DNA of 64,000 bases from Halobacterium litoreum (GCF_021233415.1 NZ_CP089466.1:186001-250000); one strand, 5' to 3'. Counted from the first letter of the stretch, positions 47,757-50,535 are shown. Translations and numbers: made by a program. The notes: generated from the sequence alone by a model not told the origin.

Positions 47757-47840
47757 AAGCCTAGGCCGGAATTTGAACGGTGTCAGACGGTCGCTCCCTA
47801 CGGTCGCGCTGCGACTGACAGGCTCAAATTCCGGACCGGC
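47757..47840. repeat. direct and inverted copies of the tRNA-Thr 3' end forming a hairpin
   Basis: The 21-bp sequence AAGCCTAGGCCGGAATTTGAA at 47757-47777 exactly repeats 47870-47890, which is the 3' end (T-arm and acceptor strand) of tRNA-Thr, 113 bp away. TCAAATTCCGG at 47823-47833 is an inverted copy. With the internal pair TGTCAG / CTGACA the two copies form a long hairpin. The interval 47583-47870 has no gene. Confidence 0.8.
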
Positions 47841-47870
47841 TTCTGCTCGTCACGTTCGTTCCTCGCAAGA

Positions 47871-47942
47871 AGCCTAGGCCGGAATTTGAATCCGGGGTCT
47901 CGTCCTTACCAAGGACGCGCTTTACCGCTAAGCTACCCAGGC
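47871..47942 (-). tRNA. tRNA-Thr (GGT anticodon)
   Basis: 72 nt on the minus strand. The acceptor stem GCCTGGG pairs with CCTAGGC (one G-U pair), with T as discriminator. D-arm GCTTAGCGGTAAAGC; anticodon stem CGTCC/GGACG with loop TTGGTAA, so anticodon GGT. T-arm CCGGATTCAAATTCCGG. No intron and no encoded CCA, as is normal for haloarchaea. Its 3' end is duplicated downstream. Confidence 0.95.
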
Positions 47943-47985
47943 ACGCATTCGTACGAAGGCCCCGCGACTTCTTTAGGCGTTTCGA

Positions 47986-48651
47986 TTATCGGTCGCCGAC
48001 CGACGTGGTGCCGACGCGCTCGTCGCCCGACGGGCGGCCGACGCGCGCCATCACGTCCTCGATGCCGTCGGGGAGCGCGTCGGCCGCGGGCGGGAGCGGC
48101 GGGGCGCCGTGGTTGTCCGCGAGGCCGACGACGTACTGGCGGAGCGCGACCGGCGTCTCGCCGCCGGCGGCCGTCCCCCCAGCGATGGCCGCCAACTCGA
48201 AGACGTTCGCCTCCAGCGTGCGGGCCGTCGACGTCCGGCCCTCCTGTACGTCGGTCTGCTCGTGGCCGAACTCGCGGACGGTCTGGACCGCGTGACCCGC
48301 GGCCTCGGTGCGCGCGAGCAACCGGAAGCCGCGTGCGACCAGCACGTCCGCCGCCAGCACGTCCAGGTCGTCGTCCGGGTCCGGGTCGTCGGTGTACGCC
48401 CACGGCTCGTCGGCGACGAGGTCGCGAGTGACGCGCAGCCCCTCGTAGATGAGTTGCACGCCCGCGGCGCGCCGCGAGACGGCGCCGGGGTCGACGGAGC
48501 CGTCGACGACGCGCGCGCTCAACACGGTGAGAACACCCGGCAGCATCGAAGACGACGCGACGTGGTCGTCGATGACCGCGCGGAGCCCGTCGGGCTCGAT
48601 GTCCTCGACGGCCTCGAGGGCGGCGACGCGTGCCTGCTCGGCCTCCTCCAT
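47986..48651 (-). CDS. conserved haloarchaeal helical protein of unknown function
   Basis: 221 residues, almost entirely helical and acidic, opening MEEAEQARVAALEAVEDIEPDG. The segment DLDVLAADVLVARGFRLLARTEAAGHAVQTVREFG recalls the helical folds of polyprenyl synthetase-like proteins but lacks the DDxxD metal motifs. It has no cysteines or signal peptide. Divergent from the enoyl-CoA hydratase gene with about 60 bp between starts. Confidence 0.65.
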   Translation of the reverse strand: MEEAEQARVAALEAVEDIEPDGLRAVIDDHVASSSMLPGVLTVLSARVVDGSVDPGAVSRRAAGVQLIYEGLRVTRDLVADEPWAYTDDPDPDDDLDVLAADVLVARGFRLLARTEAAGHAVQTVREFGHEQTDVQEGRTSTARTLEANVFELAAIAGGTAAGGETPVALRQYVVGLADNHGAPPLPPAADALPDGIEDVMARVGRPSGDERVGTTSVGDR

Positions 48652-48710
48652 CGGCCGGAGATTGCGGTGCGAACGGCAAAGACCTTTGGAAACCCCCTCG
48701 TCCCTCCGCC

Positions 48711-49388
48711 ATGCTCGACGTCACCGACACCGACGCCGTCCGGGTGGTCGCGCTCGACCGACCCGCCCGTCGGAACGCGCTCACGCCCGCCGGCCTCGAC
48801 GCGCTCCGGGACGCCGTCGCGGACGCCAGCCAGCCGGTCGTCTACGTCCACGGTGCAGGCGACGCGTTCTGTGCTGGCGCCGACCTCGACACCGTCCGCG
48901 GCCTCGACGGCGACTCCGGAAGCGAGTTCGCGCGCCGCGGGCAGCGCACGATGAACGCCATCGAAGACGCCGACAGCGTCGTCGTCGCGGGTGTCGACGG
49001 TGCGGCCCGCGGGGGCGGCGTCGAACTCGCGCTCGCCTGTGACCTCCGCGTCTGCACGCCCGACGCCTCGTTCGCGGAGACCGGCGTCACGCTCGGCCTG
49101 TTCGGCGCGTGGGGCGGCACGCGGCGCCTCCGCGAAGCCGTGGGTGCGACTCACGCTGCCGACCTCTCGCTGTCCGGGCGCACCGTCGACGCCGCGGACG
49201 CTCGCGAGACGGGACTCGTCTCCCGTGTCGTCGACGACCCGCGCGCCGTTGCCGACGAAATCGCGGGAAACGACGCCGCGGCGCTCCGAGAACTGAAACC
49301 CCTCCTCAGCGTGGACGCCGACCGCGAGGAGACCGACAGGAGGGAGGCCGACGCGTTCGGTCGCCTGCTCGCCGACGACCCGTTCTAG
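48711..49388 (+). CDS. enoyl-CoA hydratase/isomerase family protein
   Basis: 225 residues from ATG 48711, shorter than the usual 255-265 because the C-terminal helices are trimmed. The oxyanion-hole segments are GDAFCAGADLDTV and ARGGGVELALACD; the glutamate in FAETGVTLG lies at the usual second catalytic position. It hydrates 2-enoyl-CoA or catalyses a related crotonase reaction. Stop overlaps convergent nadE by 4 bp. Confidence 0.88.
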   Translation: MLDVTDTDAVRVVALDRPARRNALTPAGLDALRDAVADASQPVVYVHGAGDAFCAGADLDTVRGLDGDSGSEFARRGQRTMNAIEDADSVVVAGVDGAARGGGVELALACDLRVCTPDASFAETGVTLGLFGAWGGTRRLREAVGATHAADLSLSGRTVDAADARETGLVSRVVDDPRAVADEIAGNDAAALRELKPLLSVDADREETDRREADAFGRLLADDPF

Positions 49389-50191
49389 GGCGCCGGCGGC
49401 ATCGAGCGCTTGTGCGTGCTCTGCTCGTGTAACTCGACGACCGTCTCGACGACCGACTCGGGGACGTCGAGGTGGGCAGCCGTCGCGCTCGCGGGCGCGC
49501 CGCCGTGGACGTGCAACGCGAGCACCGCGTCGATGGTGTCGTAGCCCACGCCAAGTTCGCCCTCGTCGGTCTGGTCCGGCCACAACCCCGCCGTCGGCGT
49601 CTTCGTCACGAGGCCTTCGGGCACCCCGAGGTCGCGGGCCAGTTGGCGCACCTGCATCTTGTAGAGGTTCCCGATGGGGTTGCAGTCGACCGCCTGGTCG
49701 CCGTACTTCGTGAAGTAGCCGGTCGCCGCCTCCGTGCGGTTCCCGGTGCCGAGCACGACGCCGTTCTCGTGGTTCGCGACGAAGTAGTTCAGGACGGCTC
49801 GCGTCCGCGCTCTCGCGTTCCCGACCGCGAGTTGGTCGTCGCCCGCCTCGGGATAGAGGTCCGTGAGCCGGTCGACGAACGGGTCGATTTCGATTACGTC
49901 GTACTCGATGCCGAGGTCCTCGGCGACGCGCTCCGCGTCGCTCATGTTCTCCTCGTCGGACGCCGCCGCCGGCATCACGAGGCCGTGCAGCGCGTCCGCG
50001 CCGAGTTCGTCGACGGTGAGGTACGCGACGGTCGTCGAGTCGATGCCTCCCGAGAGCCCGAGGACACAGCGCTCCGCGCCAGCCGCCTCCACCGTCTCCC
50101 GGAGAAACGACTGGATGCGGTCGCGTCGCTCGGTCAACTCCGCCTCGGAGAACCGCACGTCGAGTGGCTCGATAACGTCTGGGCCGGTCAT
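49385..50191 (-). CDS. nadE: NAD+ synthetase (ammonia-dependent)
   Basis: Amidates nicotinic acid adenine dinucleotide to NAD+. 268 residues from ATG 50191. The ATP-pyrophosphatase P-loop is LGLSGGIDSTTVAYL. Later motifs are VLGTGNRTEAATGYFTKYGDQAVDCNPIGNLYK and PTAGLWPDQTDEGELG. There is no glutaminase domain. The open frame extends 78 codons further upstream but without similarity. Confidence 0.95.
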   Translation of the reverse strand: MTGPDVIEPLDVRFSEAELTERRDRIQSFLRETVEAAGAERCVLGLSGGIDSTTVAYLTVDELGADALHGLVMPAAASDEENMSDAERVAEDLGIEYDVIEIDPFVDRLTDLYPEAGDDQLAVGNARARTRAVLNYFVANHENGVVLGTGNRTEAATGYFTKYGDQAVDCNPIGNLYKMQVRQLARDLGVPEGLVTKTPTAGLWPDQTDEGELGVGYDTIDAVLALHVHGGAPASATAAHLDVPESVVETVVELHEQSTHKRSMPPAP

Positions 50192-50323
50192 CGTCCCGCG
50201 ATTCGGCGCACGCCGACTAAAACCCACTCGCCCGCCCCGCGTTCGTGGACGTTCGTCCACTTTCCGAAACGCTACGTTCAAGTGCGGGCGCAGACAAGCA
50301 GGAGTCGAAGCCACTCCGCGTAA

Positions 50324-50382
50324 GCGCTGGTGGTGAGCAAACCCCTCGGGTTTGCGAGCCTCAGCGCGGGCGCGGAGCGCCC
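50324..50382. repeat. hairpins and a copy of the tRNA-Gly 5' end upstream of tRNA-Gly
   Basis: GCGCTGGTGGT at 50324-50334 copies the first 11 nt of tRNA-Gly (50383-50393). It is followed by a perfect hairpin GCAAACCC / GGGTTTGC (50337-50344, 50348-50355). A second perfect hairpin has 10-bp arms GCGCGGGCGC / GCGCCCGCGC (50364-50373, 50377-50386), whose 3' arm runs 4 nt into the mature tRNA. Confidence 0.8.
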
Positions 50383-50453
50383 GCGCTGGTGGTCTAGTGG
50401 TAGGACATGAGCTTCCCAAGCTCATAGCCCGGGTTCAATTCCCGGCCAGCGCA
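50383..50453 (+). tRNA. tRNA-Gly (CCC anticodon)
   Basis: 71 nt. The acceptor GCGCTGG pairs perfectly with CCAGCGC; discriminator A at 50453. D-arm with TCTAGTGGTAGGA, anticodon stem TGAGC/GCTCA with loop TTCCCAA giving CCC, T-arm CCGGGTTCAATTCCCGG. No intron, no encoded CCA. Flanked by partial copies of its own ends on both sides. Confidence 0.96.
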
Positions 50454-50482
50454 CTTCGCAGTCTCACTTCGTTCGACAGCTC

Positions 50483-50535
50483 GTGCGCTGGCCGTCCTCA
50501 CGCTCGCTTCGCTCGCGTGAGTCCCCGGCCAGCGC
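50483..50535 (+). repeat. inverted then direct copy of the tRNA-Gly 3' end, forming a hairpin
   Basis: GTGCGCTGGCCG at 50483-50494 is the exact reverse complement of 50443-50454, the tRNA end plus one base. CCCGGCCAGCGC at 50524-50535 is a direct copy of 50441-50452. The two pair as a 9-10-bp stem, extended inside by CTCACGC / GCGTGAG. This is the same order (inverted, then direct) as downstream of tRNA-Thr. Confidence 0.8.

Follow-up and report, generated by a model that had tools for sequence, protein, structure and literature searches.

Non-coding hairpin units that copy tRNA 3′ ends downstream of tRNA genes in Halobacterium litoreum and other haloarchaea

The window, a 64,000-nt stretch of the Halobacterium litoreum genome (NZ_CP089466.1:186001-250000), carries genes for tRNA-Thr(ggt) and tRNA-Gly(ccc), each of which is followed by copies of its own 3′ end (Table 1). 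At both genes an inverted copy is followed by a direct copy, as an earlier note made from the sequence alone had described. The coordinates given there for the tRNA-Gly copies were confirmed, and those at tRNA-Thr needed small corrections. Of the 21 bp reported as a direct copy, 20 nt belong to the tRNA, whereas the 21st base (47757) is the first base of the trailer; the inverted copy is real but lies one base away from 47823-47833, and it extends imperfectly to 47844. When the 200-nt flanks were shuffled 2000 times with dinucleotide composition preserved, a direct copy of equal length was never obtained for the tRNA-Thr flank (0/2000) and was rare for the tRNA-Gly flank (P=0.001); corresponding values for the inverted copies were P=0.0005 (Thr) and 0 (Gly).

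Table 1. Features of the two tRNA loci in the window; T is the copied tRNA segment, and positions are counted from the first letter of the window.
Feature	Position	Strand	Detail
tRNA-Thr(ggt) gene	47871..47942	-	ARAGORN and Rfam
T, copied tRNA-Thr 3′ segment, nt 54-73	47871..47890	-	
X, trailer hairpin of tRNA-Thr, between tRNA end and I	47845..47870	-	stem GGCTTCT..AGAAGCC
I, imperfect inverted copy of tRNA-Thr 3′ end	47824..47844	-	exact core 47824-47834
C, conserved core hairpin at tRNA-Thr, GTCGCAGC...GACCGTCT	47778..47823	-	covariance-model match
D, exact 20-nt direct copy of tRNA-Thr 3′ end, ends at nt 73	47758..47777	-	
11-nt copy of tRNA-Gly 5′ end, in upstream hairpin	50324..50334	+	also in congener G002
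tRNA-Gly(ccc) gene, N73 at 50453	50383..50453	+	Rfam match
T, copied tRNA-Gly 3′ segment, nt 60-73	50440..50453	+	
X, tRNA-Gly trailer segment ahead of I	50454..50482	+	
I, exact 12-nt inverted copy of tRNA-Gly 3′ end	50483..50494	+	
C, short hairpin at tRNA-Gly, short-copy (nt 60-73) unit type	50495..50522	+	stem TCACGCTCGC..GCGTGA
D, exact 12-nt direct copy of tRNA-Gly 3′ end	50524..50535	+	

The same feature is common elsewhere in the genome. Of the 41 tRNA genes detected with Rfam models, a set from which a few genes, e.g., those for Trp, Tyr and Pro, are absent, 17 are followed within 200 nt by an exact copy of their own 3′ end that is 12 nt or longer. No copies of the same length appeared in 200 rounds of dinucleotide shuffling of all flanks, and pairing tRNAs with the flanks of other tRNAs gave approximately 3%. 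Three congeneric genomes had such copies at 46/126 tRNAs (3.1% for mismatched tRNA/flank pairs), 26 of them with at least 20 nt. The pattern was therefore neither absent from other tRNAs and relatives nor as frequent in shuffled flanks, either of which, according to the earlier note, would speak against it. In this genome-wide statistic the direct copy was much more strongly enriched than the inverted one. A mirror pattern at tRNA 5′ ends, such as the copy upstream of tRNA-Gly listed in Table 1, was seen at only 3 of the 126 tRNAs of the three congeneric genomes and is not a general feature.

Comparison of many loci revealed a unit of constant layout: the tRNA end is followed by hairpin X, inverted copy I, hairpin C and direct copy D. 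Units are non-coding, have a median length of 122 bp, and lie downstream of the preceding tRNA, on its sense strand and in its orientation. The edges of D are sharp. Across 176 tRNAs, D ended at nt 73 (end peak at 0), and its starts fell at the two edges of the T loop, nt 52/53 on the 5′ side and nt 60 on the 3′ side (start peaks at -22/-21 and -14); these boundaries were reproduced in 102 loci from other genomes representing many genera. Two classes of D result, a main class of 21-22 nt and a minority class of 14 nt; in the window, the tRNA-Thr unit is of the long-D type and the tRNA-Gly unit of the short-D type. At the variable T-loop positions 57 and 59, D was identical to its own tRNA in 107/109 units each, and I also followed its own tRNA in most units (Fisher p 8.5e-13 and 2.5e-9). 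A full inverted copy was considered for I and rejected: in an independent set, clear specificity for the own tRNA was limited to the T loop and the neighbouring T-stem positions, and the acceptor part was weak. Single-strand folds of units were far better than those of shuffled sequences, and X regions of other units, which often open with a T-rich run, folded better than their flanks.

Units occur singly or in tandem. Many loci contain two to five of them, some being exact repeats (including exact 123-bp repeats) and some having exchanged modules, and arrays reach several hundred bases. The D proximal to the tRNA was better kept in 9 cases, equally kept in 25 and worse in 2; this slight difference is only suggestive of an age polarity along arrays. 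In Haloferax denitrificans, a chimeric unit at tRNA-Gly has X from one type and I-C from another, with the junction at I, which suggests that modules may be exchanged at this point as well. In addition, the units of two tRNA-Ala(cgc) genes of the window's genome have X, I and half of C exactly in common and then diverge, one running into D and the other into two further hairpins and then a short D.

The C hairpin allowed us to follow the family further. A covariance model, for which 29 units from Halobacterium, Haloferax and Salinigranum served as the training set, matched 185 of the 194 haloarchaeal genomes sampled, representing 59/65 genera, and outside the class it matched one of approximately 240 other members of the phylum, weakly. 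The window's tRNA-Thr hairpin was matched with 59.8 bits and an E value of 2e-12 (window 47779-47823; G000:C1:233779-233823), this hairpin being one of the 29 training sequences. In the high-scoring set, 34/37 matches lay within 900 bp downstream of a tRNA and in the same orientation. At the 3′ end of aspS (G000:C1:2109715-2109764), a unit has two copies of the end of the gene itself, one inverted and the other direct but degenerate, and the layout is therefore not strictly confined to tRNAs. A C hairpin without any tRNA occurs in the purS/purQ spacer of the same genome (G000:C1:309117-309166). Rfam 15 gave only tRNA matches at or above curated scores and contains no family for the units. Viruses and plasmids were considered as carriers and rejected: two pattern scans of viral contigs and the phage records yielded no unit, and the plasmid search gave one weak haloarchaeal match without an annotated tRNA, together with an actinobacterial match taken as chance. 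We found no earlier description of the units in the open-access literature searched, so priority is not established.

Stems of C show strong covariation. In an alignment not fitted to the structure, 64 cells with double changes were observed versus 19.9 after shuffling, and in a set outside model building, although aligned by the model, the figures were 168 versus 56. G-U pairs accounted for 1.5% of stem cells; among departures from Watson-Crick pairing their share was 24%, compared to 88% in the T stems belonging to the same tRNAs; a second control, the acceptor stem, was noisier because some tRNA 5′ ends were misplaced. Strong covariation combined with rare G-U pairs points to a palindrome that would be kept as DNA rather than a selected RNA stem. 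At one position of the C stem (columns 10 and 54 of alignment A2), units have A-T or else a T-T mismatch, a conserved alternative that is unusual.

Close relatives differ in their units, and orthologous tRNAs of congeners may or may not carry them. In each of three comparisons, one genome had a whole unit (113, 118 or 152 bp) that the other lacked, and the DNA past D at the filled site matched the DNA past the tRNA at the empty site. The cleanest pair was at tRNA-Arg(cct), where congener G001 has an extra 118-bp unit and its DNA past D agrees with the DNA past the tRNA in the window's genome at 71/75 positions. The 113-bp difference concerns tRNA-Gly(tcc), and the 152-bp unit, found in locus L042, is lacking at the window's tRNA-Gly, whose X segment recurs in L042 after the D of the extra unit.

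Sequences of D evolve together with the adjacent tRNA. Where other alleles of a tRNA were available, D was nearest to the allele of its own tRNA in 111/125 cases and to another allele in 5. At tRNA-His and tRNA-Val(cac), D tracks each species' own tRNA variant; in congener G002, a change at nt 57 of tRNA-His is common to the tRNA and D and missing from I. Frequent hopping of units between the tRNAs of one genome was considered and rejected, as C sequences are common mainly to the same tRNA of related species: similarity of C was 0.76 for the same tRNA within a genus versus 0.635 between different tRNAs of one genome. Since C is alike by tRNA rather than by genome, units appear to persist at a tRNA and seldom hop.

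The 3′ ends of tRNA genes are classic docking sites of archaeal viruses and plasmids. As the earlier note had stated, an integrase is missing; there is none within the window units or close to them. Units of approximately 120 bp cannot encode one between their repeats, none was found beside the window arrays, and the nearest integrase match in this genome is approximately 105 kb from the window. Two loci outside the window link integrases to the same sites. In the window's genome, approximately 28 kb (G000:C1:1326118-1354464) separate tRNA-Lys(ctt) from an array of its 3′ end, an orphan array of two units, with an integrase gene (358 aa) at the far, array end; this is apparently an integrative element inserted between the tRNA and its array. 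At a tRNA-Tyr of another haloarchaeon (G153; L228:770-2775), the same unit is found on both sides of a 1.8-kb stretch containing a methyltransferase gene and a 69-aa ORF. The ORF had no Pfam or PHROG match, and its likeness to the integrase of the tRNA-Lys element, seen by direct comparison alone, suggests that it may be a truncated integrase; the repeated part of this remnant appears to take in the whole unit. These two cases indicate that ordinary integrative elements use the same sites as units.

Taken together, we consider it about an even chance (probability near 0.5) that each window locus is one unit, composed of X, I, C and D, of a haloarchaea-wide non-coding family anchored on tRNA 3′ ends and driven by recombination. 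Recombination within the stretch that runs from the T loop to nt 73 would cause units to be gained, lost and homogenised. Following the attachment logic usual at tRNA genes, the 3′ end of the tRNA would always stay correct, and D would derive from the end that was displaced or duplicated. The hairpins would most likely be active as folded single-stranded DNA: a recombinase supplied in trans might recognise them as its sites, or they might be foci at which template switching corrects the palindrome and so keeps I matched to D. Candidate mechanisms are thus a tyrosine recombinase acting in trans and template switching directed by the palindromes, singly or together; a tyrosine recombinase is the leading candidate for the putative acting enzyme because such integrases use the same site.

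Several observations count against this recombination-driven family, namely the lack of an integrase in or near the window units, the lack of frequent hopping between tRNAs, and the failure to find units in viral contigs or phages, with one weak match among plasmids. Moreover, one integrase specificity could not suffice for all tRNAs, and excision and reintegration alone would not homogenise T and D. Archaeal tyrosine-recombinase elements are known to target the T loop and the tRNA 3′ end, with an archaeal preference for the 3′ end (PMC8371274). Similar to the attachment-site duplications of these elements, each unit contains a direct copy of the tRNA 3′ end and leaves the tRNA intact; unlike them, the DNA between the repeats is approximately 120 bp long, non-coding, built of hairpins, conserved across the class, arrayed and mostly without an integrase.

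An enzyme-free origin by replication slippage and template switching at quasi-palindromes beside tRNA genes is a possibility that we regard as doubtful. Tandem duplication would create D, strand switching I, and palindrome correction the covarying stems, which would suit the exact tandem duplications, the scarcity of G-U pairs, the tracking of D by I and the vertical persistence of units at each tRNA. However, slippage by itself leaves unexplained why D has two sharp start positions and stops sharply at nt 73, and why a single conserved C family is found at most tRNA types and in 59/65 genera. It is less likely still that the units are a structured RNA or a processing or termination signal in the tRNA trailer. 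One of the two explanations offered in the earlier note was a hairpin of this kind, which would imitate the tRNA 3′ end and could engage RNase Z or the CCA-adding enzyme. The position of units on the sense strand downstream of the tRNA, the T-rich run often found at the start of X and the good single-strand folds would agree with it. Mimicry was nevertheless not supported, because pairing of I with D buries the T loop and rebuilds no T arm, because the covariation of C stems is that of Watson-Crick DNA palindromes, with G-U pairs rare among their departures, and because many copies, being members of tandem arrays, are found hundreds of bases past the tRNA. The absence of units at orthologous tRNAs in close relatives, arrays several hundred bases long and the lack of an Rfam family match also argue against an RNA.

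The other explanation in the earlier note, scars of small elements, fared better in part: units are small, have precise boundaries, occur in some species and not in others, and are located at classical attachment sites, but they form a conserved family rather than random scars, and a mobilising enzyme was not found. That they are decayed scars of ordinary tRNA-integrating proviruses or plasmids, reduced to their ends, is quite improbable; such elements do occupy the same arrays, but units are uniform in length and conserved in structure throughout the class, and no I-C hairpin was seen when the two ends of the 28-kb tRNA-Lys element were inspected. Very improbable, finally, is integration by a casposase or Cas1-like enzyme, with D as the target-site duplication of each insertion. 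The casposase of A. boonei, which recognises TCAAATC as a T-loop motif, produces a 14-15 bp duplication at the tRNA-Pro 3′ end (PMC6614799), the copy in the minority short-D class is 14 nt long, and a duplication of the target would account for D always matching its own tRNA. On the other hand, Cas1 (PF01867) occurs in only 77/194 haloarchaeal genomes and is absent from 117/194, including the window's own, yet it is present in at least 6 of the 9 genomes without units. Units also differ from the casposon (PMC6614799) in that their main D class is longer (approximately 22 nt), they are non-coding, and no casposon-like terminal inverted repeats were seen by eye.

Integron arrays consist of tandem, non-identical cassettes, and the attC palindrome is conserved in structure more than in sequence. 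The units are likewise tandem and non-identical, each has at its end a recombination-like site that includes a palindrome, and the palindromic site with covarying stems that characterizes every integron cassette is present in them. Unlike integrons, the units contain no genes and have no integron integrase, and each array is anchored on a different tRNA. A tentative and rather unlikely extension of this comparison is that the units represent an undescribed, class-wide array of integron- or CRISPR-like tiny non-coding cassettes, in which the cassette "repeat" would be the 3′ end of whichever tRNA gene precedes, and which dedicated machinery, working on folded single-stranded DNA, might build; the array would steer virus and plasmid integration at tRNA genes. 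In comparison, the MITEs, PATEs and small mobile repeats of haloarchaea, described in Haloquadratum, are dispersed or target other mobile elements, SMR-A being approximately 110 bp long (PMC3119063). Units are also short, palindromic or inverted-repeat, and gene-free; however, they are tied to the tRNA 3′ ends that they duplicate, and genome-wide dispersal was not observed, given the location of 34/37 high-scoring matches downstream of tRNAs.

For genome annotation, copies of tRNA ends of this kind can pass for integration scars. The units also raise the questions of which enzyme copies tRNA ends, whether the copies serve as decoy or spare attachment sites, and how tRNA and copy evolve in concert, for which Haloferax volcanii and Halobacterium salinarum are suitable model organisms. 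A whole archaeal class carries duplicated, hairpin-capped docking sites with high turnover behind a large share of its tRNA genes, and the ends of tRNA genes are thus far more actively rearranged than seems to have been described so far.
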